A DNA stretch of 32,588 nucleotides from Marinobacter sp. (GTDB lineage: Bacteria; Pseudomonadota; Gammaproteobacteria; Pseudomonadales; Oleiphilaceae). The stretch's first letter is position 1, and every line of letters starts with the position of its first letter. Position numbers and translations under genes: made by a program. Below, piece by piece: positions 2,025 to 27,610 of this stretch. The notes under the pieces were generated by a model that searched no databases, had not been told where the DNA came from, and saw only the letters and a list, made by a program, of their open reading frames with translations. The stretch is taken from contig JAAZVL010000017.1 of the NCBI GenBank assembly GCA_018623515.1, positions 1 through 32,588 on the forward strand, in the 5' to 3' direction.

Positions 2025-2054
2025 GGGGTCTGATGAACAAGTTCATCTGACCCC
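2025..2054 (+). repeat. REP-like 30-nt palindromic hairpin, subtype B (copy 1)
   Basis: ggggtctgatgaacaagttcatctgacccc; single T.T mismatch at pair 7:24; between convergent genes. Confidence 0.9.
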
Positions 2055-2076
2055 AACTTCACACCAGCCTCCCCCA

Positions 2077-2847
2077 TCAAATCGTCAGGTAACCACCATC
2101 AGCATTGATACAAGCCCCGGTGGTATAACTCGACGCTCCAGACACCAGATACAGAACCGTCCCCGCCATCTCATCCGGATCCGCCACACGCTTCATGGGA
2201 ATGTGCGCCATGGCCTGTTTCTTGATGGCTTCATTGGTGGTCAGGGCGCTGGCGAACTTGGTATCGGTCAGGCCCGGGAGCAATGCGTTGACGCGGATAT
2301 TCTGCTGGCCCAGTTCCATGGCAAAGGACTTGGTCATGGAAATCACCGCCGCTTTGGTAACGGAGTAGATACCCTGGAAATGACCAGGGTTCACGCCGTT
2401 GACGGAGGCCACGTTGACGATCGCGCCGCCCCCATGTTTCTTCATCATCTGGGCACCGCGTGCACACATGAAGAAATAGCCGCGGATGTTCACGTCTACG
2501 GTCTTCTGGAAGGCGCCGAGGTCAGTGTCCTCCACCGGTCCGAAATAAGGATTGGCGGCCGCATTGTTGACCAGGATGTCCAGCTTGCCGTGTGCCTTGT
2601 CGATATGCTCCCAGATGGCCTCGATCTGATCCATTTCCCCGATATGGCAGGCAATCGCCTCGGCGCTGCCACCCTCCTCACGGATGCTGCTGGCAACCTT
2701 CTCGCAGCCATCAATCTTGCGGCTGCTGACAATGACGTGAGCCCCATAGTGCGCGAGGGTCCGGGCAACGCTCTCGCCGATACCACGGCTGGCGCCCGTG
2801 ACCAGCGCCACCTTACCGGACAGATCGAACAGGTTCTTGGTACTCAT
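2077..2847 (-). CDS. SDR family oxidoreductase
   Basis: TGASRGIG nucleotide-binding motif, NNAA, YSVTK catalytic motif; 256 aa. Confidence 0.92.
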   Translation of the reverse strand: MSTKNLFDLSGKVALVTGASRGIGESVARTLAHYGAHVIVSSRKIDGCEKVASSIREEGGSAEAIACHIGEMDQIEAIWEHIDKAHGKLDILVNNAAANPYFGPVEDTDLGAFQKTVDVNIRGYFFMCARGAQMMKKHGGGAIVNVASVNGVNPGHFQGIYSVTKAAVISMTKSFAMELGQQNIRVNALLPGLTDTKFASALTTNEAIKKQAMAHIPMKRVADPDEMAGTVLYLVSGASSYTTGACINADGGYLTI

Positions 2848-2864
2848 GGATTTCCCCTAATGCG

Positions 2865-3554
2865 TTATCGGAATGTCACCAGGGCGGGGTCTTCCGCCTC
2901 CAGGTGGCTATAGTTATTGAAGACGGCCAGACTGCGACGAGGGCCGGAATACAGGATGCGGGAGACGCTGGTGTTGGCGATGACATTGTTCACCGCCAGC
3001 GCTTTTTCATCGGAGAGCTCCAGCAAGTGCTGGGCAATGACAGCTATCGGGCCGCCAGAGGTGGAAACCAGCACATCACCGCCATCGGCGTAACCGATCA
3101 GCTCATCCAGTGCGGCAATGACCCGTGCCTGAAACGCGCCCCAGGTCTCGGCGTATTCATTGTCAAACTCACCGCTGATCCAGCGCGCCATGGCTTCCTC
3201 GAAGACCTGCTGGAACAGCCGCGCAGGTTTGGGAAAGGCCGCCATATCCCGGGCCATGACCTGCCGGTCCGCCCATTCCGGCTTCAATCGCTCGACCACC
3301 TGCATGTGGTCGAACTCGTTCAGACCTTCGACCGCCTGCATATCCGGCAGGGCCTGGCCGAAGCCTGAGGCGATGGCTTCGACGGTTTCCCGATGGCGCT
3401 CCATGTTGCCGCCGAACACCGCGTTGGGCGTAACTTTACCCGCGAGCCAGCGACCGAGCACCTGCCCCTGCTCCCAACCCCGGGGAGACAACTGGTCGTA
3501 GTTGTCCTTGCCGAAACTGGCCTGGCCGTGTCGGATCAGATAGATGGTCGCCAT
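2865..3554 (-). CDS. Histidine phosphatase family protein (PGAM-like)
   Basis: N-terminal IYLIRHGQASFG (RHG motif); 229 aa. Confidence 0.9.
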   Translation of the reverse strand: MATIYLIRHGQASFGKDNYDQLSPRGWEQGQVLGRWLAGKVTPNAVFGGNMERHRETVEAIASGFGQALPDMQAVEGLNEFDHMQVVERLKPEWADRQVMARDMAAFPKPARLFQQVFEEAMARWISGEFDNEYAETWGAFQARVIAALDELIGYADGGDVLVSTSGGPIAVIAQHLLELSDEKALAVNNVIANTSVSRILYSGPRRSLAVFNNYSHLEAEDPALVTFR

Positions 3555-4618
3555 TACAGAGTGCTCTCACTGATCAGCCGCTGACAGCGCTTTTCAAGAT
3601 AATTGGCGGCGTGGCCGAAGGCGGCAAAACGTTTGTCTTTGGTCTGGCCGTGGTAGAAGCGGTAGTAGATCTGCTGGATGATCACCGCCAGCCGGAATAG
3701 ACCATAAATTTCGTAAAAATCGAAATTGTCGGCATGGAAGCCCGACTTTTCCATGTAGTACTCCACCACTTCCTTACGGGTCAGCATTCCCGGCCGGTGA
3801 GTGGGCTGGCGCCGGAGCATCTGGAACGGCCCCTCGTCATCTGCCTCGATCCAGTAGGCCAGGCTGTTACCCAAATCCATCAGGGGATCGCCGATGGTGG
3901 CCATTTCCCAGTCCAAAACACCAATCACTTCGAAGGGATTTTCGGGGTTCAGCACCACGTTGTCGAAGCGAAAATCGTTATGAATCACAACCTGCGCGAT
4001 GTCTTCCGGCATCTTGTCATTGAGCCAGTTCATCACCGCCTCGAAATCACCCACATCTTCAGTCCGGGCCTTGCGGAACCGATCGCTCCAACCGCCTATC
4101 TGGCGTTGCACGTAACCGGCGCCCTTACCCAACTTGTCCAGGCCTGCGGCCTTGGCGTCCACCAGATGCAGATCCACCAGTTTGTCGATCACGTTAAGGC
4201 AAAGCTTGCGGGTGTCGGATTCGCTCAGTTCGAAATCCTTCGGAAAGTCCTGCCGAAGGATGATCCCCTTCAGGCGCTCCATAACGTAGAAATCGCAACC
4301 CAGTACATCGTGATCGTCGCAGATGGCGACGATATTCGGCACGTAGGGGTAGACCGGCTTCAACGCCTGCATGACCCGCGCTTCCCGGAGCATGTCATGG
4401 GCGGATTTGGCGATCTTGCCGAACGGCGGCCGGCGCAGAACGAAGGACTGGTCACCGTAATCCACCTGATAGGTCAGGTTGGAGGCTCCACCCGGGTACT
4501 GTTTGATGGAAGGCTGGCCTTCCAGACCCGGGATCGCCTGCTTCATGAACCGGTCAACAGCGCCGACATCCAGTTCTTCACCCTCACGGATATCCACCGC
4601 CTGATCGATCTGTGTCAT
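3554..4618 (-). CDS. Phosphotransferase family protein (APH / ACAD10-11 kinase-domain-like)
   Basis: VIHNDFRFDNVVLNP (Brenner HxDxxxxN) and IGVLDWEMATIGDPLMDLG; stop overlaps the start of the phosphatase ORF. Confidence 0.9.
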   Translation of the reverse strand: MTQIDQAVDIREGEELDVGAVDRFMKQAIPGLEGQPSIKQYPGGASNLTYQVDYGDQSFVLRRPPFGKIAKSAHDMLREARVMQALKPVYPYVPNIVAICDDHDVLGCDFYVMERLKGIILRQDFPKDFELSESDTRKLCLNVIDKLVDLHLVDAKAAGLDKLGKGAGYVQRQIGGWSDRFRKARTEDVGDFEAVMNWLNDKMPEDIAQVVIHNDFRFDNVVLNPENPFEVIGVLDWEMATIGDPLMDLGNSLAYWIEADDEGPFQMLRRQPTHRPGMLTRKEVVEYYMEKSGFHADNFDFYEIYGLFRLAVIIQQIYYRFYHGQTKDKRFAAFGHAANYLEKRCQRLISESTL

Positions 4619-4648
4619 TCACGTTCTCCTGTGGTCTGTTCTGGCCAC

Positions 4649-7083: not shown

Positions 7084-7977
7084 ATGGCCCTCAATCGCCT
7101 GGACCTGAACCTGCTGCACGTATTCGACACCATCTACCGGGAGGGCAGCCTGACCCGCGCCGCCAAGGCCCTTCACCTCACGCAGCCAGCGGTCAGTCAT
7201 TCCCTGTCCAGACTGAGGGACCACTTCGATGACCCCCTTTTCACCCGCCAGGGCAACCAGATGATCCCGACGCCCCTGGCGCGGCGGTTTCTGGAATCCA
7301 TGCGCCCGGGGCTGACGCAGATCCAGAGTGCGGTGAACCAGTTCCATGCATTCGATCCGGCCAACCAGCGCAAGACCTACTCGCTCGGACTGCGGGATGT
7401 GCTCGAATCCACGTTTCTCCCGCAACTGATGAAGCGGCTGGACGCCTACCCGGAAATGGAGATTGTGTCCCGTCGGATTGCCCGGCGCGACATGGAAACA
7501 CAACTGGCGGCAGGCAAGCTGGACTTTGCGGTGGATGTGCTCTTGCCCGTGAGCAACCAGACCGGGCACGAATTGCTCCGCAGGGACCGTCTGGTGGTTC
7601 TTGCACGCCAAAACCATCCACTGGCCGGCAGGAATCTGGACATGGAGGGCTATATCTCGGCACAGCATGTGCTCGTTTCATCCCGCACCGAGGGACCAGG
7701 TATCGAGGATTTTGAACTTTCACGTCTTGGCGTGCACCGGAACATCCGCCTGCGCTGCCAGCACTACTTTGCGGCCTGCCGGGTGGTCGAAGGTACTGAT
7801 CTGCTGCTCACCATGCCGGAGACGTATGCCAGGATCATTGCCGAAAACTCGTCCCTGACCCTCATGGATCCACCCACTGATCTACCCTCTCTTGATGTAC
7901 ACCTGTATTGGCACAAGGCCTATGAGAAGGAACCGGCATTGGTGTGGTTCCGGGAGCAGCTGCGCCAGATCGAGTGA
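7084..7977 (+). CDS. LysR family transcriptional regulator
   Basis: N-terminal wHTH LNLLHVFDTIYREGSLTRAAKALHLTQPAVSHSLSRLRDHFDDPLFTR. Confidence 0.95.
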   Translation: MALNRLDLNLLHVFDTIYREGSLTRAAKALHLTQPAVSHSLSRLRDHFDDPLFTRQGNQMIPTPLARRFLESMRPGLTQIQSAVNQFHAFDPANQRKTYSLGLRDVLESTFLPQLMKRLDAYPEMEIVSRRIARRDMETQLAAGKLDFAVDVLLPVSNQTGHELLRRDRLVVLARQNHPLAGRNLDMEGYISAQHVLVSSRTEGPGIEDFELSRLGVHRNIRLRCQHYFAACRVVEGTDLLLTMPETYARIIAENSSLTLMDPPTDLPSLDVHLYWHKAYEKEPALVWFREQLRQIE

Positions 7978-8111
7978 CTGCGGCGGTCCATGCACTGTCG
8001 TTATTGTTCGCTTTGACGACGCTTTCGTTAAAGTCCGCACCTCATCCCTGGTTTACCTTGTCCATAACGTGGACTTCTGCCGATTACAACTCACAAAAAG
8101 AGGGCTCCGCT

Positions 8112-8756
8112 GTGGAAATCCTTGATTTCGTCATGACCAACCTGAACCTGCTGGGCAAGCTCACACTCGAGCACATCGGTCTGGTGGTCGTCGCCGTGGG
8201 TCTGGCAACGCTGACAGGTGTTCCGATTGGCATTGCGATCACCCAGAACGAGCGCATTGCCACCGTTGTGCTCTATGTGGCCTCGGTTCTTATCACCATC
8301 CCATCCATCGCGTTGTTCGGAATCATGATCCCGATTCTTTCGACGATTGGTCACGGGATTGGCTACCTGCCCGCCGTTATTGCGGTGCTGCTGTACTCCC
8401 AGCTACCCATCATCCGGAATACCTACACCGCCATTAACAACGTCAGTCCAGGCCTTCGTGAAGCTGCCAGGGGCATTGGCATGACCAGCGCCCAGCGGCT
8501 CCGGAAAGTGGAAATTCCACTGTCCGTGCCGGTGATCATGGCGGGGGTACGCACCGCAGTGGTTATGAACATCGGTGTCATGGCGATTGCGGCCTATATC
8601 GGCGCCGGTGGGCTTGGCGTGCTGATCAGCCGGGGGATTTCCCAGAGTGATCCCCGGCAACTGGTAGTGGGAGCGATTGCCGTCAGCCTTCTGGCCATTG
8701 TCGCCGACCGTTCCCTGCTGTCACTGCAACGCAGACTGACCCCCAGGGGCCTCTGA
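8112..8756 (+). CDS. Osmoprotectant (glycine betaine/choline-type) ABC transporter permease
   Basis: OpuBB/OpuCB-like sequence PIIRNTYTAINNVSPGLREAARGIGMTSAQRLRKVEIPLSVPVIMAGVRTAVV; probable GTG start at 8112 inside ORF 7944..8756. Confidence 0.88.
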   Translation: MEILDFVMTNLNLLGKLTLEHIGLVVVAVGLATLTGVPIGIAITQNERIATVVLYVASVLITIPSIALFGIMIPILSTIGHGIGYLPAVIAVLLYSQLPIIRNTYTAINNVSPGLREAARGIGMTSAQRLRKVEIPLSVPVIMAGVRTAVVMNIGVMAIAAYIGAGGLGVLISRGISQSDPRQLVVGAIAVSLLAIVADRSLLSLQRRLTPRGL

Positions 8757-8789
8757 TTCCTCGAGATAACAACAACCGGGATACGGAAC

Positions 8790-9953
8790 ATGATTACACT
8801 CGACAACCTGACCAAGATTTTTGATACCGACCGCGGTGTAGTGACTGCCGCCGACCATATCAACATGGAGGTGCCGCAGGGTGAAATCTGCGTTCTGCTG
8901 GGACCTTCCGGTTGCGGCAAGACGACCACCCTGAAAATGGTGAACCGGATTATCAATCCGACCTCAGGCCGTGTCCTGATCAACGGTCAGGACACCACCG
9001 ACCAGGACACCGTTTCCCTGCGCCGGAACATCGGCTACGTCATCCAGCAGATTGGTCTGTTCCCGAACATGACCATCGAGGAAAACATTTCGATCGTGCC
9101 GAAGCTGATCGGCTGGGAAAAAAGCCGCTACCTCAAGCGCGCTTCGGAACTGCTGGAAATGGTCGCCCTGGACCCCGCCATTTTCCTCAAGCGGTACCCG
9201 AACGAGCTGTCAGGCGGCCAGCAACAACGGGTCGGAGTCATCCGCGCCCTGGCTGCGGATCCCCCCGTAATGTTGATGGATGAGCCCTTCGGTGCGATCG
9301 ACCCTATCAACCGGGAAGTGATCCAGGACGAGTTCCTGAAACTGCACCGGGAGCTGAAGAAAACCATCATGTTTGTCAGCCACGACATCGACGAGGCGGT
9401 GAAGATGGCGGACCGTATTGCCATCTTCAAGGACGGCAAGCTGATTCAGTACGACACCCCGGACGACCTGCTCTCCCACCCGGCCAATGATTTCGTCAAG
9501 GGCTTTGTCGGACGGGATCGGGCACTGAAACGCCTTCAGTTGGTGACCGTCTCTGAGGTGCTGGAAACCGAATCCAGTGTCGTCACGGCGGAGGATTCGC
9601 TGGCCACAGCCCTGCAACGCATGGACGATGCCGGATACGAGAGGGCCATCATCGTGGTCGACGGCCATGACCGGCCGGTGGGTTACATCTCCCGCAGTGT
9701 GGCTACCACGACGAAGGGCAAGTGTGGCCAGCACAGCTACAACCTGCGTACCGTGGTTCGCCCCGAGGACGACCTGCGTACGGTCGCCTCCAAGATGTTT
9801 ACCCACGACGCCACCTGGCTGCCCTGCGTTTCCGAACAGGGCAAGCTGATGGGCGTAGTGACCCAGCGCGGCATTACCCACTACCTGGGCGCGACTTACA
9901 AGTCATCCCGCAGTGATGACCAGAGCATTCGGCGTATCAGGGTGGCAACATGA
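8790..9953 (+). CDS. Osmoprotectant ABC transporter ATP-binding protein with C-terminal CBS domains
   Basis: Walker A GPSGCGKTTT, signature LSGGQQQRVGV, Walker B VMLMDEPFGAIDP; C-terminal CBS-like repeats. Confidence 0.93.
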   Translation: MITLDNLTKIFDTDRGVVTAADHINMEVPQGEICVLLGPSGCGKTTTLKMVNRIINPTSGRVLINGQDTTDQDTVSLRRNIGYVIQQIGLFPNMTIEENISIVPKLIGWEKSRYLKRASELLEMVALDPAIFLKRYPNELSGGQQQRVGVIRALAADPPVMLMDEPFGAIDPINREVIQDEFLKLHRELKKTIMFVSHDIDEAVKMADRIAIFKDGKLIQYDTPDDLLSHPANDFVKGFVGRDRALKRLQLVTVSEVLETESSVVTAEDSLATALQRMDDAGYERAIIVVDGHDRPVGYISRSVATTTKGKCGQHSYNLRTVVRPEDDLRTVASKMFTHDATWLPCVSEQGKLMGVVTQRGITHYLGATYKSSRSDDQSIRRIRVAT

Positions 9954-10681
9954 AAAAGCTCAAACAGTCCCGTTTCTTCCAGTTGCCGGCACTGGTTGTC
10001 GTCCTCTTGCTGGGGGTTTACCTCCAGCGCTCGGGTCTGATTGACGGCATGCTGTTCTACTGGGAAGACATCGTTTACCTGACCAAACAGCATATTCAGC
10101 TGACCGCCATTTCAGGGACGCTGGCGATTGCCGTAGGCATCCCGCTCGGGGTTATCCTGAGCCGGCCCCGCTTCATCAAGGTTTCCGAGTGGGCCATGCA
10201 GGGCCTGAATGTGGGCACCACGATCCCGACCCTGGCAATCCTGGCGCTGTCCATGAGCCTCTTGGGTATCGGGTTCATACCTTCAGTATTCGGCCTGTTC
10301 ATCGCCTCCCTGCTGCCGATTGTACGTAACACCTACACCGGTCTATTGGGGGTTCCGGCACACCTGAAGGAGTCAGCCTCGGGCATCGGCATGTCGGCCA
10401 GTCAGATGTTGCTGCGTGTGGAAATTCCGAACGCCGCCTATGTTATTTTCGCCGGCATCCGGACGGCACTGGCCATCAACGTCGGCACCGTGCCCCTGGC
10501 TTTCCTGATTGGCGGTGGCGGTCTGGGCGAGCTGATTTTTACCGGCATCGACCTGTTCGATACCGAAATGATGCTGGCCGGGGCCCTCATGACAGCCCTT
10601 CTGGCCATCACCGTGGACATCCTGGTAGCCGCCTGCGCGTTCCTGATGGTTCCCCGCGGCGTCAATCCATCCCGTGCCTGA
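9950..10681 (+). CDS. Osmoprotectant ABC transporter permease
   Basis: PIVRNTYTGLLGVPAHLKESASGIGMSASQMLLRVEIPNAAYVIFAGIRTALAINVGT; 4-nt overlap with the ATPase gene. Confidence 0.92.
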   Translation: MKKLKQSRFFQLPALVVVLLLGVYLQRSGLIDGMLFYWEDIVYLTKQHIQLTAISGTLAIAVGIPLGVILSRPRFIKVSEWAMQGLNVGTTIPTLAILALSMSLLGIGFIPSVFGLFIASLLPIVRNTYTGLLGVPAHLKESASGIGMSASQMLLRVEIPNAAYVIFAGIRTALAINVGTVPLAFLIGGGGLGELIFTGIDLFDTEMMLAGALMTALLAITVDILVAACAFLMVPRGVNPSRA

Positions 10682-10767
10682 GGTCGCATAGGGCGGCCCG
10701 GGCTGTGATAACTGGCCACTCCGTGTGGGGTGGCCACAAAACAAGAAGTCACCTGGAGCACTGAAAC

Positions 10768-11658
10768 ATGAAAACCCTCAAGAAACTGGCATCCGTAGCG
10801 ACCCTCGCCATCTCCATGACCTTCGGTGGCGTCGCAGCCGCCGAAACCATCGTGGTCGGTGGCAAGAACTTCACCGAGCAGCAACTGCTGACCTCCATGA
10901 CCGCCCAGTACCTGCGCGCCAATGGCTACGACGTGGATACCCGGGCCGGCATGGGCAGCGCCGTTCTGCGATCCGCCCAGGAAAATGGCCAGGTGGACGT
11001 TTACTGGGAGTACACCGGCACCGGCCTGATTGTTTACAACGACGTCAAGGAAAAGCTTGGCCGCCAGGAAGGCTATGAGAAAGTGCGCGAGCTGGACATG
11101 GAAAAAGGCCTGGTCTGGCTGAATCCGTCTGACGCCAACAACACCTACGCCCTGGCAATGCAGGCCGAGGAGGCCAATGCCATGGGTATCAAGACCCTGA
11201 GTGACATGGCTGCCGCCATTAACGATGGCAAGGAGCTGGTATTGGCCAGCAACGCCGAGTGGTACGCCCGTGAAGATGGCTTCCGTCCGTTTGCCAAGGC
11301 CTATGAATTCAAGCTGCCACGCGACCAGATCAAGCGTATGGACTCCGGCCTTACCTATACCGCGCTGAAAGAGGGCGAGGTAGACCTGGCTCTGGTCTTC
11401 GCCACTGACGGACGTATCCCGGCATTTGATTTCGTGCTACTGGAAGACGACCGGAACTTCTTCCCGGACTATGCCATCACGCCGGTGGTACGCCAGGAAA
11501 CCCTGGACCAGAACCCGGAACTGGACGATCAGCTCAACAAGCTCTCCAGCATGCTGGATAACAAGGTTATGTCGCGCCTGAACGCCCAGGTTGATGTGGA
11601 GAAAGAGGAAATCGAGAAGGTTGCCCGCAACTTCCTGGAGCAGAACGACCTGATCTGA
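10768..11658 (+). CDS. Osmoprotectant ABC transporter substrate-binding protein (OpuC/QAT family)
   Basis: Signal peptide, then ETIVVGGKNFTEQQLLTSMTAQYLRANGYDVDTRAGMGSAVLRSAQENGQVDVYWEYTGTG. Confidence 0.92.
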   Translation: MKTLKKLASVATLAISMTFGGVAAAETIVVGGKNFTEQQLLTSMTAQYLRANGYDVDTRAGMGSAVLRSAQENGQVDVYWEYTGTGLIVYNDVKEKLGRQEGYEKVRELDMEKGLVWLNPSDANNTYALAMQAEEANAMGIKTLSDMAAAINDGKELVLASNAEWYAREDGFRPFAKAYEFKLPRDQIKRMDSGLTYTALKEGEVDLALVFATDGRIPAFDFVLLEDDRNFFPDYAITPVVRQETLDQNPELDDQLNKLSSMLDNKVMSRLNAQVDVEKEEIEKVARNFLEQNDLI

Positions 11659-11673
11659 CCCCAGTGGGACTAC

Positions 11674-11706
11674 GCCCTGTGACCCCCTGCGGTTCACAGG
11701 GCTTTT
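11674..11706 (+). terminator. Rho-independent terminator after the ABC operon
   Basis: gccctgtga-...-tcacagggc stem followed by tttt. Confidence 0.7.
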
Positions 11707-11745
11707 GCCGTTTCAAACCCGTCTGTCAATCACCGAGAAGCCGAC

Positions 11746-12582
11746 ATGATTACCAACCTCAATGTGGCCGTCGCACAGATCAACAGCCAGTTGCTGGATG
11801 TTGAAACCAACCTTGAACGGCACCGCGAATATGCTGAGCAGGCCCGTCAGAGTGGCGCGGAACTGCTACTGTTTCCCGAACTATCGCTGACCGGCTACCA
11901 GGTCGGACGCGATGCGCCCTCCGTTGCCATGCGCCGGGACGATCCGGCCCTGCTCAGCCTAGCGAAACAAGCGAAGGGCATCACCCTTGTAATCGGATTT
12001 GTGGAACGGGCGCGGGCAGGTGAACTTTACAACGCCATGGCGTACCTGCGGGACGGTGAGGTGATCCACGTTCATCGTAAACTTAATTTGCCCACCTATG
12101 GCGGCCTGGAAGAAGGCAAGTGGTTCCATTCCGGCAGCCAGATCGGGAACGTAAAGATCCGGGAGCACTGGGAATCCAGCTGCCTGATCTGCGCGGACCT
12201 GTGGAACCCTGCCCTCACCCACTGCGCTTTCCTGAAGCAACCCGAACTGATGCTGGCCCCTATCAATTCCGCCTCCGGCGTGGTCAGCGAGAATTTCTCC
12301 AACGAAGACAACTGGAAGACCAACGTCAGCTTCTACGCCATGATCTACGGCACACCCGTGGTGATGGCCAACCGCTATGGTCACGAGAAAGATCTGTGGT
12401 TCTGGGGTGGGAGCTGTATCCTCGGTCCAAAGGGAGAAATACTCGCGTCTGCTGACGACCGGGAGTGTCTTATTCAAGCCGAGCTGAACCAGGAATCCAT
12501 CGACCGCGCGCGCTTCGAGATGCCGACGGTGCGGGATTCCAACACCCGCCTGATCCGACGTCTGCTCGACGATCAGTACTGA
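11746..12582 (+). CDS. Nitrilase-superfamily carbon-nitrogen hydrolase
   Basis: FPELSLTGYQ (Glu), HRKLNLPTYG (Lys) and SSCLICADLWNP (Cys) catalytic triad contexts. Confidence 0.92.
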   Translation: MITNLNVAVAQINSQLLDVETNLERHREYAEQARQSGAELLLFPELSLTGYQVGRDAPSVAMRRDDPALLSLAKQAKGITLVIGFVERARAGELYNAMAYLRDGEVIHVHRKLNLPTYGGLEEGKWFHSGSQIGNVKIREHWESSCLICADLWNPALTHCAFLKQPELMLAPINSASGVVSENFSNEDNWKTNVSFYAMIYGTPVVMANRYGHEKDLWFWGGSCILGPKGEILASADDRECLIQAELNQESIDRARFEMPTVRDSNTRLIRRLLDDQY

Positions 12583-12593
12583 GTTCAAGGTAC

Positions 12594-12618
12594 AAAAAAA
12601 GGGCGGCCATGGCCGCCC
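12594..12618 (-). terminator. Terminator of the minus-strand amidohydrolase gene
   Basis: Perfect 18-nt palindrome gggcggccatggccgccc at 12601-12618 with an A7 tract at 12594-12600, i.e. a T-tract on the minus strand. Confidence 0.8.
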
Positions 12619-12639
12619 GAAAACATCTTCATCAACGCT

Positions 12640-13527
12640 TCAATCATCAAAGCCATACAGGCGAGCGGGATTGGACACCAGGATTCGCTCGCGGATTCCG
12701 TCATCCGGCACCCAAACCGCCAGATCGTCCAGAAGGTCCGTGTCGTCCGGCATCAGTCCCGGGAAATGGGGATGGGGCCAGTCCGATCCCCAGACACATC
12801 GGTTGGAATTTGCAGCCACCAGGGCACGGGCAATTTCTTCAACGTCCGGATAGGGATACTCCCCCTGCAAAGTGACCCGGTAGCTGCCAGACAGCTTCAC
12901 CCAGGCCCGATTGTCCACGAGCAGCTGCAGCAGCTTCCTGAACCCGGGCTCTTCGGTTCCCAGCGCTGCAGGCATATGACCCATATGATCAAACACTACC
13001 GGAACCGGCAGCTCGCTAACGCGGTCCATGATGTCGTCACAGTCCGAGACGTTGATCAGGAACTGAAGGTGCCACCCCAGAACCGCGATCCGGTCAGCCA
13101 GCCCCAGGACGTCCTTCCACTGCAGGCCACCCCGGAACAGCAAGTTCATCCGTACACCCCGGAATCCGGCCTCATGGAGTTCATTAAGCTCAGTGCTGGA
13201 GATTTCCGGGGCGACCACACACACGCCGCGATAGTCATACCCCCACTCCCTGAGCTGCCGGAGAGCCTGCAGGTGGAGGCTGTTATCGGTGCCGTAGACG
13301 CTGGGCTGCACCAGAACCCCGCGCTCGATACCCAGCATCCGGTGCAGCTCAAGATACTGCTCCAGGGAGGCTTCTGGCGGGGTGTAGGTGCGATTGGGGG
13401 TTAAGGGGTAGTCCTCGTGACGGGCGAAGACATGAGCATGGGTATCGCAGCTCTTTGCCGGAACCGCCACGACCGGCCGGCGTGACACCGTGCGGGCCGC
13501 CTCGCAGAAGGGAATCTCGGAACTCAT
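12640..13527 (-). CDS. Amidohydrolase family protein (2-pyrone-4,6-dicarboxylate lactonase-like)
   Basis: SCDTHAHVFARHEDYPL metal motif, PVVFDHMGHMP, CVWGSDWPHPHFPG. Confidence 0.88.
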   Translation of the reverse strand: MSSEIPFCEAARTVSRRPVVAVPAKSCDTHAHVFARHEDYPLTPNRTYTPPEASLEQYLELHRMLGIERGVLVQPSVYGTDNSLHLQALRQLREWGYDYRGVCVVAPEISSTELNELHEAGFRGVRMNLLFRGGLQWKDVLGLADRIAVLGWHLQFLINVSDCDDIMDRVSELPVPVVFDHMGHMPAALGTEEPGFRKLLQLLVDNRAWVKLSGSYRVTLQGEYPYPDVEEIARALVAANSNRCVWGSDWPHPHFPGLMPDDTDLLDDLAVWVPDDGIRERILVSNPARLYGFDD

Positions 13528-13548
13528 AATCGGTCACTCAAAGGTAAA

Positions 13549-13569
13549 GCGGCGGCCAGGGGCCGCCGC
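13549..13569 (-). terminator. GC-rich hairpin downstream of the alpha/beta hydrolase; possible weak terminator
   Basis: gcggcggcc-agg-ggccgccgc perfect 9-bp stem; only a short T-run on the minus strand. Confidence 0.5.
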
Positions 13570-13579
13570 AGGAGAGCTG

Positions 13580-14470
13580 TCAGAAGGTGGACGTGATCCA
13601 GTCGGCAATCTTGCCGGCAAAGGCCTGGAACTTGGGGTTCTCATCCAGCATCCATTCAGTGTGGCCGCCGCCCTCGAGCAGGAACAGCTCCTTCGGGCCC
13701 GGGTAACGGGCGTAGAGGGAACGTGCCTCGGTGACCGGGTGCAGGTCGTTCTCCGCGCCGTGGGCGATCAGCAGCGGAATCTGCGCGAAGCGATCATCGA
13801 GGTGCGCTTCGGGGCAGAAGCTGATCAGCGAATCCGCAAAATCGAATGTGGAAGTCACGCCATAACCGGGTGCCTTGACCAGCTCGGTGTACACGTATTC
13901 GCGGCTGACCGGATCCAGCGGATAAATCTCGAACGGGTCGATACCCTGGGGCTCTCCGCCTTTGGCAAGACGCAGACGCTCGTTGGCCATGAAGGCGCGG
14001 AACTGCTTCCAGCCATGCTCACCGCGCAGAGCTTTCTGAACACGCACAGCATCGTAGAAACCGTTCATGGCAATCAGACCATCGACCTGATCCTCACAGA
14101 TGCGGAAGGCATCCAGGACAAGACCACCACCCATGCCCCAGCCAGCCAGAACGACTTTGCGCTTTTCTTCCTTGGCGCGCTCGGCGACCAAGGCGACCGC
14201 ATTGGCGATATCACGAACCTGCTCTTCAATGAGGACATGCTCACGCTCACCCTCGGACTCGCCGAAGCCACGGTAGTCGAAACCGAATACAGTGAAGCCC
14301 TTGCGAGTCAGAAAACGGGCATAGCGTTCGGGATGGATATTCTTCTGTCCGGTGAAACCGGAGCAGACGATAACGATCGGCAGACGAGGATCGTCATGCT
14401 CTTCATTCTTGAAGAAGGCGCCGTCGAGGGTGAGCTTGTCACTCTGGAATTTCACTTTTTGTTCGATCAT
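13580..14470 (-). CDS. Alpha/beta hydrolase
   Basis: ORF 13580..14521; VVCSGFTGQKNIHPERYARFL, nucleophile-elbow-like AGWGMGGG, GGGHTEWM His; probable start MIEQKVKFQSDKL at 14470. Confidence 0.85.
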   Translation of the reverse strand: MIEQKVKFQSDKLTLDGAFFKNEEHDDPRLPIVIVCSGFTGQKNIHPERYARFLTRKGFTVFGFDYRGFGESEGEREHVLIEEQVRDIANAVALVAERAKEEKRKVVLAGWGMGGGLVLDAFRICEDQVDGLIAMNGFYDAVRVQKALRGEHGWKQFRAFMANERLRLAKGGEPQGIDPFEIYPLDPVSREYVYTELVKAPGYGVTSTFDFADSLISFCPEAHLDDRFAQIPLLIAHGAENDLHPVTEARSLYARYPGPKELFLLEGGGHTEWMLDENPKFQAFAGKIADWITSTF

Positions 14471-14598
14471 GTCGGGTTCCTGCCAATGGGCGTTGTTGTT
14501 AACGACTACGGGTCCCATCATCAGAAAATCCGGATCGACAAAAATTTAATAAAACGCCATCATGCACTAAAAAAGCGACATTCCGTTCAGGTAGCCCA

Positions 14599-15561: not shown

Positions 15562-15661
15562 CACGATGTTGTCGGCTTTATTACAACCAATGTCGGTTTA
15601 TTTGCAGTCGCCCGAGTCGTGAACCCCAATGATGTAGGCACAATAATAGCGAGTGCCCATC

Positions 15662-17008
15662 ATGTCAGACCTTTCATTACCAAAGAAGATTCTGGAACTC
15701 GACGCCACGGCTCTGCCCGAACCGGTCTACAGGCTGGCACGCATCTGCTTGCTGGACCTCCTCGGCGTATCAGCCGGTGCAACCGGCACGCCCCTGGCCC
15801 GGATAGCGCTCGAGTTTGTGCGCGATCAGTACCCAGGCAGGCAGCCACTGCTGTTCTCGGAGGGCCAGGCCTCAAGCGCCGGCGCCGCGCTTTATGGCGG
15901 CTGGCTGATTGACGCCCTCGATGCCCATGACGGCCATGTCCTGACCAAGGGTCATGCCGGTGTCGCTGTCCTGCCCGGGATGTTGTCGTTGCCCGAAATC
16001 CGGAACTTATCGGGGCGGCAATTTCTGGGTGAGCTGGCCATCGGCTACGAGATTGCCATCCGCGCGGGCATCAGCCTTCACAGTGCAGCCTGCGACTACC
16101 ATACCTCCGGTGCGTGGAACTGCCTGGGCGTGGCCGCCGTGGCGGCCCGGGTGATGGGGCTGTCACCAAAGCAACTGGCCGAGGCACTTGGCACCGCCGA
16201 GTTCTACGGTCCACGCAGCCAGATGATGCGCTGCATAGACCACCCCACTATGCTCAAGGACGGCTCAGCCTGGGGCGCCATGACCGGCATTTCCGCCGCA
16301 TTGCTGGCGAGGGCTGGCTTTACCGGTGCCCCGGCACTGCTGCTTGAGGAATCTGACCTCTGGCGGGACCTTGGAACCCGTTGGCATTTTCTGGACACCT
16401 ATTTCAAACGTTACCCGGTGTGTTATTGGGCCCAACCGGCCGTGGAGGCCGCGCTCTCGCTCCGGACATCAATACCCGACACGGCGCAGATCGAGGAGGT
16501 TCGAGTCACCAGTTTCCATCAGGCGATTCGACTGCATACGTCCCGGCCTCAAAGTACCGAAGAGGCCCAATACAGCCTGCCCTGGGCGGTGGCTTGTGCT
16601 TTGCACCGCGGCACGGTGAATCAGCAGTCGGTAACCAATGATCTGGCGCACCCCGAGGTCCTGCGGCTGAGCGGAAAAGTCCGACTTTACGAATCTGCCG
16701 AGTTCTCGGCCTGTTTCCCGGCACACAGGTATGCCACAGTCAAGGTCCGACTGGGCGATGGCCGGGAACTGGTCAGTGACCGATTCGAGGCCAGAGGCAC
16801 TCCGGGCAACCCGGTTCTCCGAAGCGAACTGGTCACCAAATTCCACGAACTGGCAGGGCCTGTCCTCGGTCCCGCAGCCGATTGCCTGGAGCGGGCCGTA
16901 GATGACCTGTCTGACCACCCGGTGACGCAGCTTCTGGCACAACTGAATCAGACCAAGCCATACCAGAACCAACAGGAAATCAGCCTCAGCCATGCTACCG
17001 CGACTTGA
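15662..17008 (+). CDS. MmgE/PrpD family protein
   Basis: IDALDAHDGHVLTKGHAGVAVLPGML, YEIAIRAGISLH, DYHTSGAWNCLGVAAVAARVMGLS; alternative GTG start at 15653. Confidence 0.9.
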   Translation: MSDLSLPKKILELDATALPEPVYRLARICLLDLLGVSAGATGTPLARIALEFVRDQYPGRQPLLFSEGQASSAGAALYGGWLIDALDAHDGHVLTKGHAGVAVLPGMLSLPEIRNLSGRQFLGELAIGYEIAIRAGISLHSAACDYHTSGAWNCLGVAAVAARVMGLSPKQLAEALGTAEFYGPRSQMMRCIDHPTMLKDGSAWGAMTGISAALLARAGFTGAPALLLEESDLWRDLGTRWHFLDTYFKRYPVCYWAQPAVEAALSLRTSIPDTAQIEEVRVTSFHQAIRLHTSRPQSTEEAQYSLPWAVACALHRGTVNQQSVTNDLAHPEVLRLSGKVRLYESAEFSACFPAHRYATVKVRLGDGRELVSDRFEARGTPGNPVLRSELVTKFHELAGPVLGPAADCLERAVDDLSDHPVTQLLAQLNQTKPYQNQQEISLSHATAT

Positions 17009-20000
17009 GCAGACAACACCGACCCAGTCCCGTTACCTCGCATTCCTCAAGACGCTCAAGGATTCGGGTTTCCGCGGAGAGATGACGCCGGACTATGCAA
17101 CCAGAACGGTACTGGCTACCGACAATTCCATCTATCAGGTGCTGCCGCAGGCGGTGGTTTTCCCGATGGGAAAGGCAGATGTCCAGGCACTTGCTCGCCT
17201 GGCGGCAACAGCTGATTGGGCGGATATCGTGTTCAGTCCCCGTGGCGGGGGTACCGGCACCAACGGTCAGTCATTAACAGACGGGATTGTGGTGGACCTG
17301 TCCCGTCACATGAACCGGATCCTCGAAATCAACGCCGTCGAAGGTTGGGCGCGGGTCGAGGCCGGAGTCGTGAAGGATCAACTGAATTCAGCCGCAAAAA
17401 CTCACGGTCTGTTTTTCGCGCCGGAGCTGTCCACCAGCAACCGGGCCACCATCGGCGGCATGATCAATACCGATGCCAGCGGCCAGGGCTCTGTCATGTA
17501 TGGCAAGACCCGTGATCATGTCCTGGAGCTCGAGACCGTGCTGATGGACGGAAGCCTGCTTCAAACCGCGGCCCTCGACCCTGACCAAGAGACAGCCGTA
17601 ACCGGACAAGCTTCGCTGGCGGGCGACATCTACCGAACCCTAACGGATATCTGGGACCGTCGCCGGACCGATATAGAACAACACTTTCCCAGACTGAACC
17701 GGTGCCTGACCGGTTATGACCTGGCCCACCTCCGCGATGAACAGGGTCGGCTCAACGCCAACAACGTCCTGTGCGGTTCGGAAGGTACGCTGGGCTTCGT
17801 AGTCGAGGCAAAAATCAATCTGGTGCCGATTCCCGATTACCAGGCTCTGGTGGTGGTCCAGTACGACAGCTTCGACGCCTCCCTGCGGGATGCCAGAGCC
17901 CTGATGGAAGCCGGCCCGGCCTCAATCGAAACCATCGACAGCAAGGTACTGGAGCTTGCCAGGGGCGACATCGTCTGGCACGAGGTGGCGCCGTTTTTCC
18001 CGGCCACCTCGGACACTCCGACGAAGGGGGTAAACCTTGTCGAGTTCACCGGGAGCGACGAGCAGGAGGTACGCCGGGCAGTGAGGACTCTGACTGAGCT
18101 GCTGGACGTTCCAAAACGGACGCCAGCCTGCCACTACGCCGTCGCATTCGGTGAACAGGCGGTCAGCCAGGTCTGGAAAATGCGTAAGCGGGCCGTAGGA
18201 CTGCTGGCCAAAACTTCCGGGGAGGCCCGCCCGGTGGCATTCGTTGAGGACACCGCCGTCCCCCCTGAGCATCTCGCGGACTTTATCGGTGAGTTCCGCG
18301 AGGTCCTCGACCGCAAGGGGCTGAGCTACGGCATGTTCGGGCACGTGGACGCGGGCGTGCTCCATGTCCGCCCTGCCCTCGACCTGAAGGATCCGGAAAC
18401 AATCAACATCGTTCGCTCGGTCACCGAGGAAGTGGTCGCGCTGGTGCAAAAGTTTCATGGCCTGCTGTGGGGCGAGCACGGCAAGGGCTTCCGTTCCGAA
18501 TTTACACCCGGCTTTTTCGGGGACCTTTACCCGGAATTGCAGGCCGTGAAACGGGCCTTTGACCCCCGCAATCAACTCAACCCGGGCAAAATTGCGACAC
18601 CCGATGCCCGAATCCCGCTGGTGAAACTGGATGAGCCCGGGCAGCGCGGAGCATTGGATCGCACCATTCCGGTTGCCAGCCGACGCAGCCAGCCGGACGC
18701 AATGAACTGCAACGGCAACGGCGCGTGCTACAACTTCGACCCGGACGATGCCATGTGCCCGTCATGGAAAGCTACTCGCGACCGCCGGCATTCCCCAAAG
18801 GGTCGCGCCTCTCTCGTCCGGGAGTGGCTCAGGCTGCTCGGCGAGCAAGGTGTGGATACCGAATCGCTGGCAGCACAGACAAACTCGACCACGACGCTGC
18901 GGAGCCTGCCCGTGAGGTTTCGGAATACCCGGGCGCGCAACCGGGGGCAGTACGACTTTTCAAATGAAGTCCGGGAAGCCATGGACGGCTGCCTGTCTTG
19001 CAAATCCTGCTCCGGCCAATGCCCTGTCCAGGTCGACATTCCCGAAGCCCGTGCCCGATTCATGCATCTGTACCACGGCCGCTACCTGCGCCCGTTCAAG
19101 GATCATCTGATCGGGAGGCTGGAGCAACTGATCCCTTTCATCGCCAACCCCCTCGCCCGGCCCCTATACAACAGCCTCATGCGCTGGGCACCGGTCAAGG
19201 CGCTGGTCCGCAACATTGGCATGGTGGACAGTCCGCTGCTCTCACCGCAGACACCTATCGCGGCAGCTGCCAGGCTCGGCATCGGTACCGTGAACCACAA
19301 GGAGCTGGCAGGCCTGAGCGAGGAGGAACGGGGCCGGTCGCTGATCATCGTGCAGGATGCGTTCACCAGCTACTTCGAGACCGATACGTTCGCCGCCATC
19401 CTTGAGTCGTTGCAATACCTCGGCCTGCGGATTTGGTTGCTGCCCTTTCACCCGAATGGCAAACCGCTTCACGTCCATGGCTTTCTCAGACAGTTCGAGA
19501 CCATTGCAGGCAGGCATGCCGATCTGCTGAGGTCCCACGCGAAGTATGGTGTTCCTCTGGTTGGCATCGACCCGTCGATGACCCTCGCTTTCCGGTCGGA
19601 GTATCGAAAGTACGTCGGCACAGAGGTTCCCACTGTGATGCTGCTTCAGGAGTTCCTGGCCGGCAGGGTCGGGCAACTGGCTCAAACCCTTGAACCAGAG
19701 CCGGGGGAAAAAATCACCCTGCTGGGCCATTGCTCGGAGAAGACCAACGCCGCCGGCAGCATGGATCAATGGCGGCAGGTGTTTGAATCGCTGGGCATCA
19801 GGATCAGTGTCGAGGCAACTGGCTGCTGCGGCATGGCGGGGACCTATGGCCATGAGACCCGCAATGTCGACAAATCCAGGACCATTTATGACCTGTCCTG
19901 GGGGCCGAAGATCAGCGCTTTGAAAGATGGGCAGGTGGTACTGGCCACCGGTTACTCGTGTCGGTCACAGGTGAAGAGGTTTGCTGGTGCGAAAGTGAGG

Positions 20001-20066
20001 CATCCTCTGGAGTACTTGCGGGACAGGCTTCGGGAGGAGGTTGGTAACCGTGAGCGGGTTGGCTGA
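16992..20066 (+). CDS. FAD-binding and Fe-S-binding oxidoreductase (YdiJ / D-2-hydroxyacid dehydrogenase-like)
   Basis: 1024 aa; FSPRGGGTGTNGQSLTDGIVVD FAD_binding_4 motif, CLSCKSCSGQCPVQVDIP Fe-S motif, GCCGMAGTYGHE C-terminal CCG motif. Confidence 0.92.
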   Translation: MLPRLEQTTPTQSRYLAFLKTLKDSGFRGEMTPDYATRTVLATDNSIYQVLPQAVVFPMGKADVQALARLAATADWADIVFSPRGGGTGTNGQSLTDGIVVDLSRHMNRILEINAVEGWARVEAGVVKDQLNSAAKTHGLFFAPELSTSNRATIGGMINTDASGQGSVMYGKTRDHVLELETVLMDGSLLQTAALDPDQETAVTGQASLAGDIYRTLTDIWDRRRTDIEQHFPRLNRCLTGYDLAHLRDEQGRLNANNVLCGSEGTLGFVVEAKINLVPIPDYQALVVVQYDSFDASLRDARALMEAGPASIETIDSKVLELARGDIVWHEVAPFFPATSDTPTKGVNLVEFTGSDEQEVRRAVRTLTELLDVPKRTPACHYAVAFGEQAVSQVWKMRKRAVGLLAKTSGEARPVAFVEDTAVPPEHLADFIGEFREVLDRKGLSYGMFGHVDAGVLHVRPALDLKDPETINIVRSVTEEVVALVQKFHGLLWGEHGKGFRSEFTPGFFGDLYPELQAVKRAFDPRNQLNPGKIATPDARIPLVKLDEPGQRGALDRTIPVASRRSQPDAMNCNGNGACYNFDPDDAMCPSWKATRDRRHSPKGRASLVREWLRLLGEQGVDTESLAAQTNSTTTLRSLPVRFRNTRARNRGQYDFSNEVREAMDGCLSCKSCSGQCPVQVDIPEARARFMHLYHGRYLRPFKDHLIGRLEQLIPFIANPLARPLYNSLMRWAPVKALVRNIGMVDSPLLSPQTPIAAAARLGIGTVNHKELAGLSEEERGRSLIIVQDAFTSYFETDTFAAILESLQYLGLRIWLLPFHPNGKPLHVHGFLRQFETIAGRHADLLRSHAKYGVPLVGIDPSMTLAFRSEYRKYVGTEVPTVMLLQEFLAGRVGQLAQTLEPEPGEKITLLGHCSEKTNAAGSMDQWRQVFESLGIRISVEATGCCGMAGTYGHETRNVDKSRTIYDLSWGPKISALKDGQVVLATGYSCRSQVKRFAGAKVRHPLEYLRDRLREEVGNRERVG

Positions 20067-20070
20067 TCTT

Positions 20071-20100
20071 GGGGTCAGAAGAAGGCATTCTTCCGACCCC
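20071..20100 (+). repeat. REP-like 30-nt hairpin, subtype A (copy 2a)
   Basis: ggggtcagaagaaggcattcttccgacccc; stem mismatch A.C at pair 7:24. Confidence 0.9.
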
Positions 20101-20130
20101 TGAGTTTGAGTCCAAGTTTGCGGGGAAAAC

Positions 20131-20160
20131 GGGGTCTGATGAACGCCTTCATCTGACCCC
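20131..20160 (+). repeat. REP-like 30-nt hairpin, subtype B (copy 2b)
   Basis: ggggtctgatgaacgccttcatctgacccc; T.T mismatch at pair 7:24; exactly 30 nt after copy 2a. Confidence 0.92.
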
Positions 20161-20164
20161 AAGT

Positions 20165-20521
20165 TCAATACGCCCCCACAGCTGCGAGGAACCCGAAGAA
20201 GCCAGCGGCGGTGATCCCCAGGGACGCCACCACTATCCCCAACCCCCACCACACGGCGGCGGCATCGGAGATATTCACGTCATGGCCGCGCAGGGTGCGG
20301 TAGAAGGCCCACGGGCCGAGTACGAAAGCGCCGGCCACAGCGAATACGAGGCCCACGCTGATACCGGCAAAGGTCCAGGTAGCCAGAACGGTGGCCCGGT
20401 CGGAAACCTGGTCGCTCACACCGTGATGTTCCAGAAACTTTTTACAGAAGAACCAGATAAGCCCGAACAGTATGGCGACAAAGACCAGCGCGCCGATGAT
20501 GGTAATGATGCGGTAGAGCAA
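20165..20521 (-). CDS. Small hypothetical membrane protein
   Basis: 118 aa with several hydrophobic segments (IIGALVFVAILFGLIWFF, FAGISVGLVFAVAGAFVLG, LGIVVASLGITAAGFFGFLAAV). Confidence 0.7.
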   Translation of the reverse strand: MLYRIITIIGALVFVAILFGLIWFFCKKFLEHHGVSDQVSDRATVLATWTFAGISVGLVFAVAGAFVLGPWAFYRTLRGHDVNISDAAAVWWGLGIVVASLGITAAGFFGFLAAVGAY

Positions 20522-24006: not shown

Positions 24007-24036
24007 GGGGTCAGAAGAAGGCCTTCTTCTGACCCC
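24007..24036 (+). repeat. REP-like 30-nt hairpin, subtype A (copy 3a), perfect palindrome
   Basis: ggggtcagaagaaggccttcttctgacccc is its own reverse complement. Confidence 0.93.
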
Positions 24037-24056: not shown

Positions 24057-24086
24057 GGGGTCAGATGAAAGCTTTCATCAGACCCC
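24057..24086 (+). repeat. REP-like 30-nt hairpin, subtype B (copy 3b)
   Basis: ggggtcagatgaaagctttcatcagacccc; A.A mismatch at pair 7:24. Confidence 0.92.
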
Positions 24087-24105
24087 ATGTTGATGCACCC
24101 CACTG

Positions 24106-24678: not shown

Positions 24679-24771
24679 GAATGGTTCCTCCGAAAGATGC
24701 TCTTATCCTGCGCCAGGGGACAGGATCGGGCAACCACAGGGTATTAAAGATTGGTCAGGAACGACCCGGGC

Positions 24772-24963
24772 CTATTCATTCTCGGCCCGGGCTTGGACGT
24801 GCGGTGTGAGATTTTCGTCAATGGTCACATGCAGCAGGATCGGCTGACAGCAGACCTGGCAATCCTCCACGTACTCCTGCTCCGCCACTGACGGGTCGAC
24901 GCTGATGTCCAGCGTCTCCCAGCAATAGGGGCATTGGATGAGTACTGACTCCAGGGCAGACAC
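24772..24963 (-). CDS. CPXCG-motif cysteine-rich protein
   Basis: 63 aa; CPYCWETLDISVD and CQVCCQPILL. Confidence 0.85.
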   Translation of the reverse strand: MSALESVLIQCPYCWETLDISVDPSVAEQEYVEDCQVCCQPILLHVTIDENLTPHVQARAENE

Positions 24964-24972
24964 GCAAGCTCC

Positions 24973-26199: not shown

Positions 26200-26374
26200 A
26201 AATACCTCCTCGGGCGGGACGGGAAAAGACCTACCTCTGCAGGTTAGTCAGTAAAAACAGGCGGTACAAGACAAAAACCAATAAAGATGGGATAAGTAAA
26301 AATACGGCCTCGGGCGCAAGGCTCCGGGCCCTGAAAACTCGGACTATCGGCCGGAGAGGGGACAACGCGAACCC

Positions 26375-26404
26375 GGGGTCTGATGAACGCTTTCATCTGA
26401 CCCC
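26375..26404 (+). repeat. REP-like 30-nt hairpin, subtype B (copy 4)
   Basis: ggggtctgatgaacgctttcatctgacccc; T.T mismatch at pair 7:24; in a divergent intergenic region. Confidence 0.92.
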
Positions 26405-26521
26405 ATTTTGATGAACACCCCAAGGTTGACCGCACTGCAAGCTCAAACCAGACTGTAGGAAGCGGTACACCCAACCCACCGCAGCAATTTCAGTGTTCAC
26501 CCATAACGAGGCGGAGGCCCA

Positions 26522-27505
26522 ATGACTCAGCAAAGCAAACCGGTTGTAACCGTTTTGACAGCTCCTGGCGAACAGCAGCCACCGGGCATGGATGCGTTAA
26601 AAGCCCGGGCCGAGGTCCGGTTTGCCTGCGATGAACAGACGCTGAGAGACACCCTGCCGGGCACGGACGTGATGATGGTGACCGATTTCAGGACCGAAGC
26701 CCTGGAAGCCGCCTGGCACTGTGCCGACAAACTCCAGTGGATCCATGCCACCAGTGCCGGCGTCGATGCCCTCATGTTTCCGGGCCTGATCGAAAGCGAT
26801 GTGGTGGTCACCAACGCCCGGGGCATCTTCGACCGGACCATTGCCGAGTATGTGCTTTGCACCATCCTGATGTTCGCCAAGGATTTTCCGAATTCGATCC
26901 GCCTCCAGCACCGGCATGAATGGAAACACCGGGATACGGAGCGGGCCGAAGGCAAGCAGGTGCTGGTGGTCGGCGCCGGCTCCATTGGCCGTCAGATCGG
27001 CCGCCTGGTCCGGGCGGCGGGGCTCCAGCCCCATGGCATCGCCCGCACCCCACGCCACGACGACCCGGATTTCGTGGCGGTGCATGGCAACGATGATCTG
27101 TTCAATCAGCTGCCCCACTATGATTACGTGGTCATTGCCGCTCCCCTCACCCCGCAGACCGAGGGCCTGTTCGACCACAAGGCGTTCAAGGCCATGCGTA
27201 AAAGTGCCCGACTCATTAACATTGGTCGTGGCCCCATCGTGAAAACCGATGACCTGATTGTCGCCCTGGAGGATGGGGAAATCGCCGGCGCCGCCCTGGA
27301 TGTCTTCGAGGAAGAGCCGCTGCCCAAGGGCCATCCGCTCTGGGATATGGAAAACGTGATCATGACCGCCCACATGGCGGGCGATTTCATCGGCTGGAAG
27401 CGGGCCCTGACCGATCAGTTCCTGGAGAACTTCGATCTGTGGCACAAGGGCCGGAACCTGTTCAACCTGGTGGACAAGAGACTCGGTTATGCCGGCAGCA
27501 AATAA
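26522..27505 (+). CDS. D-2-hydroxyacid dehydrogenase
   Basis: VVGAGSIGRQIGRLVRAAGLQPHGIART NAD motif, INIGRGPIVKTDDLIVALEDGEIAGAALDVFEEEPLP. Confidence 0.92.
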   Translation: MTQQSKPVVTVLTAPGEQQPPGMDALKARAEVRFACDEQTLRDTLPGTDVMMVTDFRTEALEAAWHCADKLQWIHATSAGVDALMFPGLIESDVVVTNARGIFDRTIAEYVLCTILMFAKDFPNSIRLQHRHEWKHRDTERAEGKQVLVVGAGSIGRQIGRLVRAAGLQPHGIARTPRHDDPDFVAVHGNDDLFNQLPHYDYVVIAAPLTPQTEGLFDHKAFKAMRKSARLINIGRGPIVKTDDLIVALEDGEIAGAALDVFEEEPLPKGHPLWDMENVIMTAHMAGDFIGWKRALTDQFLENFDLWHKGRNLFNLVDKRLGYAGSK

Positions 27506-27540
27506 CGCCGGCAGTTTCGGAATTACAGGCCATAGAGACA

Positions 27541-27568
27541 AAAACGGGAGCCCTCAGGCTCCCGTTTT
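27541..27568. terminator. Bidirectional Rho-independent terminator
   Basis: aaaacgggagcc-ctca-ggctcccgtttt, perfect 12-bp stem with A/T tracts. Confidence 0.85.
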
Positions 27569-27580
27569 CAGGTCAAAGCC

Positions 27581-27610
27581 GGGGTCAGATGAAAGCTTTC
27601 ATCTGACCCC
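27581..27610 (+). repeat. REP-like 30-nt hairpin, subtype B (copy 5), perfect palindrome
   Basis: ggggtcagatgaaagctttcatctgacccc is its own reverse complement. Confidence 0.93.

Follow-up and report, generated by a model that had tools for sequence, protein, structure and literature searches.

The TIRYT enzymes, which lie between terminal inverted repeats (TIRs) carrying the motif GGGGWSAS (Di Nocera et al., 2013, PMC3733652), are the closest described relatives of the system reported here. One TIR family of Stenotrophomonas maltophilia is self-complementary (PMC3733652). Most TIRYT have been placed in subclass 2.1, equivalent to group 1, of the RAYT superfamily (REP-associated tyrosine transposases; REP, repetitive extragenic palindrome), and for subclasses 2.1 and 2.3 automatic as well as manual searches turned up no associated REP-like sequences (Quentin et al., 2018, PMC6006769). 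Residues Q95, E100, H101 and R104 of Escherichia coli RayT are named as the GTAG-reading residues (PMC6006769). In Pseudomonas fluorescens, next-neighbour distances of REPs above 200 bp show no significant deviation from random (PMC3116915). How REP repeats and REPINs (REP doublets forming hairpins) begin, and whether RAYT outside the GTAG-reading groups make them, is left open in this literature. Here we analyse a family of 30-nt palindromic hairpins on a 32,588-nt stretch of Marinobacter sp. DNA (contig JAAZVL010000017.1, hereafter the window; source assembly GCA_018623515.1, here G000, a Marinobacter genome of 3.29 Mb in 303 contigs, 88.8% complete). The hairpins very probably derive from the inverted repeats at the ends of a single-copy, TIR-associated Y1 transposase gene and have become a dispersed family.

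A first-pass annotation of the window had listed seven copies. All seven are present and match its core pattern exactly, and none was found in 100 dinucleotide shuffles. Searching the whole G000 assembly gave 189 copies at up to 2 mismatches, far from a mere handful, and the pattern read backwards gave 0. The same reversed control was 0 in 124 of 124 genomes, and chance or a pattern artefact is ruled out by these controls together with the shuffles. Hairpin anatomy was derived from 682 distinct contexts containing 158 distinct 30-mers. The hairpin is a 30-nt palindrome able to fold into a 12-13-bp stem; its predicted RNA fold is very stable (-17 to -22 kcal/mol) and a T-rich tag follows. At positions 10/21 (the W pair) T-A occurs in 362 contexts, A-T in 311 and an unpaired combination in 9, so 673 of 682 retain pairing by compensatory change of both partners. 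Positions 7 and 24, entered as free in the core pattern, turned out to be constrained. When copies are oriented by the tag, these two positions read T..T in 399, A..T in 228, A..A in 37 and T..A in only 4, so that most copies can be oriented by their mismatch. The tag, AWNTTCA, stands 3' of the hairpin on one side only (on the opposite strand, TGAANWT precedes the hairpin), with T in 93% and 98% at its fourth and fifth positions; orientation was set by the tag itself, and the T..T class alone, oriented without it, still has 87% and 98% T. The reported length of 30 nt thus holds for the hairpin itself, and the one-sided tag extends the element 3' of it.

Copies occur at about 100 per Mb. In G145, mapped over 2.0 of 2.9 Mb of contig with open reading frames (ORFs) from a simple gene caller, 252 copies fall into 101 clusters, 81 of which hold 2-5 copies. 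The annotation had called all copies intergenic, which is true of the seven window copies and nearly true genome-wide (9 of the 252 copies in G145 overlap an ORF). For pairs with their tags inward, start-to-start distances peak at 46-48 and 64-67. Such doublets are able to fold into long hairpins, and their arrangement is a REPIN-like architecture.

The gene linked to these hairpins encodes a 215-aa Y1 transposase. In G092, G120, G145 and G127 a copy of the hairpin stands on either side of it; in G002 the gene is split between two contig ends, with the hairpin at the assembled ends of the fragments. The REPtron feature, a gene between copies of its own dispersed palindrome on both sides, was found at loci L147, L148, L150 and L154-L156, and Y1_Tnp was present in all five of the other genomes examined at locus level. 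A second Y1_Tnp gene of G002 (L043/L149) was rejected as the mobiliser; its flanks are without hairpins.

In a survey of 124 genomes, the best match to the 215-aa protein was set against the hairpin count at up to 1 mismatch. Most Marinobacter genomes have zero copies, as do 21 genomes of other genera in the same order. A genome with the identical protein (G092) has 390 copies, and those at 98% (G145), 94% (G120) and 89% (G127) identity have 395, 248 and 377; G002, with transposase fragments at 88-95% identity, has 364. Counts are 28 (G114) and 72 (G086) at 70% identity and 25 (G135) and 59 (G144) at 68%. Among the listed genomes with a full-length relative at 55% identity or less, only G101 (36%) has a copy, a single one, and the count is 0 to 23 where matches are absent or short and weak. 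By record title the hairpin-rich genomes are M. pelagius 114J, M. pelagius CGMCC 1.6775, Marinobacter sp. C7 and the metagenome-assembled genome (MAG) Bin_10, others having few. The hairpin-bearing transposases form one clade (94/91) with eight carriers whose gene is sequenced, and the carrier state changes once on the tree, a value as low being reached in 0 of 500 shuffles. A phage origin is unsupported (0 matches among 2.9 million viral contigs in IMG/VR). Copies and a 70% transposase also occur in a MAG recorded as Halomonas sp. SAT58 (PAKW01000105.1 and related contigs; L046, L151); its title looks wrong, and it appears to be the same as G114, which is placed within Marinobacter.

The Marinobacter enzyme scores 64 bits against Pfam Y1_Tnp. 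Its HVH and YIELNP motifs, the latter the class-2 Y---NP signature, align to H59/H61/Y115/N119 of E. coli RayT (structure 4er8), with which it shares about 20% protein identity; a PDB sequence search with the Marinobacter protein gave no match. The four GTAG-reading residues of E. coli RayT are replaced by E, S, C and D, respectively. Against the NCBI REP-transposase model NF047646 it reaches 73.4 bits for a cut-off of 80 (E. coli RayT, 179). A C-terminal extension is present (215 aa vs 165 in E. coli RayT), and a Pfam scan of this part at E≤10 found no helix-turn-helix match of the kind expected of TIRYT or subclass 2.1 (Bac_DnaA_C, HTH_23, HTH_28). The hairpin end GGGGTCAG fits GGGGWSAS, and GGGGTCAG(A) flanks the hairpin-bearing enzymes as well as most relatives at 44-55% identity. 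Judged by features and not by placement among the reference sequences of the subclass, the enzyme is probably a TIRYT-type Y1 (HuH-tyrosine) transposase of subclass 2.1. REP-like hairpins nevertheless flank its gene, contrary to the survey finding for this subclass (PMC6006769).

The palindromes beside related genes suggest how the hairpin arose. Beside the gene, most relatives at 44-55% identity carry a long palindrome of the 51-nt type, GGGTCAGACCC-N5-CATTT-N9-AAATG-N5-GGGTCTGACCC. In the 68-70% relatives a nested double palindrome, GGGGTCAGATGAAAAT[GGGGTCAGATGAANNNTTCATCTGACCCC]ATTTTCATCTGACCCC, stands in the flanks of the gene, and 38-115 hairpin copies are counted at loop lengths 2-6. In the M. 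pelagius clade, tags resembling ATTTTCA follow the 30-nt hairpin. The outer arm of the nested palindrome starts with the tag ATTTTCA, so if the arm ATTTTCATCTGACCCC is cut short the tag remains; the nested double palindrome of the sister genomes is likely to be the precursor of the tagged hairpin. From the transposase tree, the order of stages would be a 51-nt palindromic TIR, the nested double palindrome and the 30-nt tagged hairpin. The 51-nt palindrome family of the more distant Marinobacter RAYTs was found at 1-27 exact copies per genome in 20 genomes.

Hairpin copies are crowded around the gene. A stretch of 10-15 kb around it holds 15 copies in G092, 20 in G145, 16 in G127 and 20 in G120, where about 1 is expected. 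Of the 101 clusters in the 2 Mb mapped in G145, 10 are no more than 10 kb from the gene, where length alone predicts 1.0. Up to 100 kb the count is 35, against expectations of 10.1 by length and 17.8 by intergenic bases, the latter itself inflated by genes missed by the caller. In G086, 25 of 115 copies fall in 241 kb around the gene. For the 51-nt type in G018, all copies among the matches listed are within 121 kb containing the gene (C23:606952-727930), and in G013 all five matches are within 72 kb of it. The windows were picked after the data were seen and some counts are those among the matches listed; p-values are therefore indicative only. The 51-nt family was also observed to crowd near its transposase gene in the genomes examined (listed: G018, G081 C13, G013 C1 and G109 C1). 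A transposase fragment is located at G145 C1:1292058-1292246 beside a second, one-sided excess of hairpins (1300000-1360000) and is perhaps an older site of the gene.

We infer that cutting and copying are the work of this protein and take a single-strand route. On DNA that is single-stranded, as the lagging-strand template is at a replication fork, the palindrome would fold into its hairpin and be recognised by the enzyme, with polarity provided by the 7/24 mismatch and the one-sided TTCA/TGAA tag. The tyrosine would cut beside the hairpin and the piece would be joined elsewhere. New copies would land in intergenic DNA, with a preference for sites up to about 100 kb from the transposase gene; they would often fall beside an existing copy, which produces arrays and doublets in inverted orientation. 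After the spread, sites would persist for a long time, with copies gained or lost mainly locally. As a tentative proposal, to which we give somewhat less than even credence, a TIR-associated Y1 transposase, of a kind thought not to make REPs, turned its own ends REP-like and spread copies mainly near its own gene. If this is true, the population grows outward from one chromosomal point, and the three stages show the origin of a REP-like repeat step by step.

The crowding part of the main explanation has a rival of its own, in which a tolerant chromosomal neighbourhood, and not local enzyme action, concentrates the copies. In the lineages examined the gene appears to lie at a similar place, next to or near the genes for MvaT, UDP-sugar dehydrogenase and Beta-CASP; the genomes used as replicates therefore share one region, and a tolerant region is a real rival; polysaccharide genes also adjoin the neighbourhood. 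Nearby copies, however, flank housekeeping genes as well (e.g., argininosuccinate synthase and exonuclease I), and three palindrome sequence types each crowd there separately. In G085 the block of neighbouring genes is present without the transposase gene and copies are dispersed; E. coli has no such crowding, with 16 REP-like matches in a 100-kb region around rayT and 12 in one of equal size elsewhere. We lean away from a tolerant region as the explanation and regard it as a serious possibility. The annotation had assigned the repeats to REP/REPIN elements mobilised by a RAYT. That assignment captured the dispersed intergenic palindromes, the REPIN-like inverted doublets and a hairpin-flanked Y1_Tnp/RAYT-type gene in all other hairpin-rich genomes. 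A canonical GTAG-type system of the E. coli or Pseudomonas kind would likewise account for short polar intergenic palindromes at this density, and for a flanking single-copy Y1 gene with the class-2 motif. But GTAG, GTGG or CGTC stands at the hairpin foot, on either side, in only 1 of the 682 contexts, the GTAG-reading residues are replaced, the NF047646 score is below the cut-off and the end GGGGTCAG fits the TIR motif (PMC3733652); an ordinary REP system is largely refuted and we hold it to be very improbable.

In another reading the hairpins would be host regulatory elements, mainly bidirectional transcription terminators or mRNA 3' stabilisers, that selection has multiplied and retained; the transposase gene would have them only as its terminators. 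The distribution in G145 agrees with this: convergent regions are occupied in 38 of 218 cases, tandem regions in 52 of 885 and divergent regions in 7 of 268 (convergent vs tandem, p = 3e-7). So do the very stable fold with its T-rich tag, the compensatory changes and the persistence of intact perfect palindromes in genomes without the gene. Yet the copy count goes with the transposase clade and is zero in most Marinobacter genomes, a separate terminator-like hairpin already adjoins the window copy at 27581, and arrays of 2-5 copies and crowding near one gene are unexpected of terminators. Convergent sites may simply be the least harmful insertion points. The convergent preference fits harm avoidance and would allow a secondary terminator role; as the explanation of the family, host function is unlikely.

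Several observations weigh against derivation of the hairpins from the ends of the transposase gene. The mobilising enzyme had been predicted to lie elsewhere in the genome, and a Y1_Tnp search of G000 gave no match; the flanked gene is found in the other hairpin-rich genomes. The block beside the gene (MvaT-like regulator and UDP-sugar dehydrogenase) is present in 9 of 9 relatives and missing from G000, where contig C46 starts about 430 bases ahead of the next syntenic match. We read this as an assembly gap, which is most likely why G000 shows no RAYT; a real deletion is possible. In G127 the gene has an in-frame TAG at a conserved tryptophan, yet 377 copies remain. This TAG in Marinobacter sp. 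C7 (L157) is at codon 99 and may be a recent inactivation or a sequencing error. Several genomes lacking the gene (G080, G085 and G138) retain 15-23 copies, which may be relics or host-used elements. Among the copies listed for G080 and G085, nearly all are perfect palindromes with full pairing; they are scattered, and many share the loop AGCT. The feature-based assignment to subclass 2.1 is a further weak point. Finally, recent insertion was sought at 44 orthologous sites and none was empty in G145.

Of these 44 comparable sites, 26 differ in copy number. From 0 of 44 empty sites and 26 of 44 copy-number changes we conclude that the spread is mostly older than the species split and that later change has been local. 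Set against the polymorphism that a REP/RAYT explanation predicts, the outcome is mixed: copy number differs between species, but insertion sites rarely do. Clean empty/filled sites that would give the target and joint were absent from the ingroup, and outgroup sites were too diverged. In G145, an examination of strand bias along the replichore gave no clear signal.

The window copies are listed in Table 1. Four of the five loci lie between convergent genes (2006/2077, 20066/20165, 23972/24106 and 27505/27619) and one between divergent genes (26199/26522). Close relatives with a comparable site all have hairpins there, with 1-3 copies per site, and this hairpin is missing from every comparable site of the outgroups G085, G144 and G086. 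The doublet at 20071-20160 folds as a single hairpin (z = -5.5). The site of the 24007 doublet has 1 to 3 copies across five relatives; the tag call of its right member is ambiguous (ATGTTGA right, GAAGAC left). At the site of the 26375 copy, five relatives have hairpins and three outgroups have none. The 27581 copy stands just downstream of the separate terminator-like hairpin (ACGGGAGCC..GGCTCCCGT). At this site each of the 5 clade relatives has one copy, intact or with slight decay, and G085 and G144 have none. In G086 (L194), the orthologue of window 27506-27619 has a different 26-nt hairpin, GGGGTCAGAACTTCGGTTCTGACCCC, in place of the 30-nt element.

Table 1. Hairpin copies in the window.
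Coordinates	Strand	Positions 7/24	Adjoining tag	Arrangement	Remarks
2025..2054	+	T..T mismatch	AACTTCA (right)	single, convergent genes	G002 orthologous site has 2 copies
20071..20100	-	A..C		left member of doublet	right edge of ~12-kb indel; G145 site has 3 copies
20131..20160	+	T..T	AAGTTCA (right)	right member of doublet	start-to-start 60
24007..24036	+	A..T, fully paired	followed by TTTTTTA	left member of doublet, convergent genes	
24057..24086	.	A..A		right member of doublet	start-to-start 50
26375..26404	+	T..T	ATTTTGA	single, divergent genes	
27581..27610	+	A..T	AACTTCC	single, convergent genes	

Window 7962-20069 is an indel of about 12 kb: sequences at approximately 7844-7964 and 20115-20190 adjoin in six relatives. 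Its content includes an ABC transporter with an OpuAC substrate-binding protein, a carbon-nitrogen hydrolase, MmgE/PrpD and an FAD-linked oxidase, and its right edge is at the hairpin doublet 20071-20160.

A literature search, which covered few subscription papers, found no earlier description in Marinobacter. The genus offers three related palindrome types with their cognate genes, from 0 to about 395 copies in sister species and a spatial gradient, and this set permits direct tests of cutting specificity, of local versus genome-wide spread and of decay after gene loss. Compared with TIRtrons/TIRYT (PMC3733652), the Marinobacter system shares a RAYT-like gene between inverted repeats with GGGGWSAS (here GGGGTCAG) and TIR copies dispersed as singles, dimers and groups. 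It differs in its hundreds of copies and in the form of the element, now a short polar hairpin that has a mismatch, bears its tag on one side and occurs in REPIN-like doublets; further differences are the visible series from nested TIR to hairpin and the crowding of copies near the gene. Like subclass 2.1 enzymes (PMC6006769), the transposase has Y---NP, HuH, a C-terminal extension and unconserved GTAG-reading residues; unlike them, its gene is flanked by REP-like sequences with up to 395 dispersed copies. With the GTAG REP/REPIN systems of E. coli and P. fluorescens it has in common short intergenic hairpins, inverted doublets and a flanked single-copy gene, whereas the GTAG foot is lacking and protein identity to E. 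coli RayT is low. Doublet spacing is about 65 bp in Marinobacter, with an internal mismatch in the hairpin, and 71 and 110 bp in P. fluorescens (PMC3116915). Marinobacter copies crowd near the gene, whereas next-neighbour spacing of P. fluorescens REPs beyond 200 bp does not differ significantly from random (PMC3116915).

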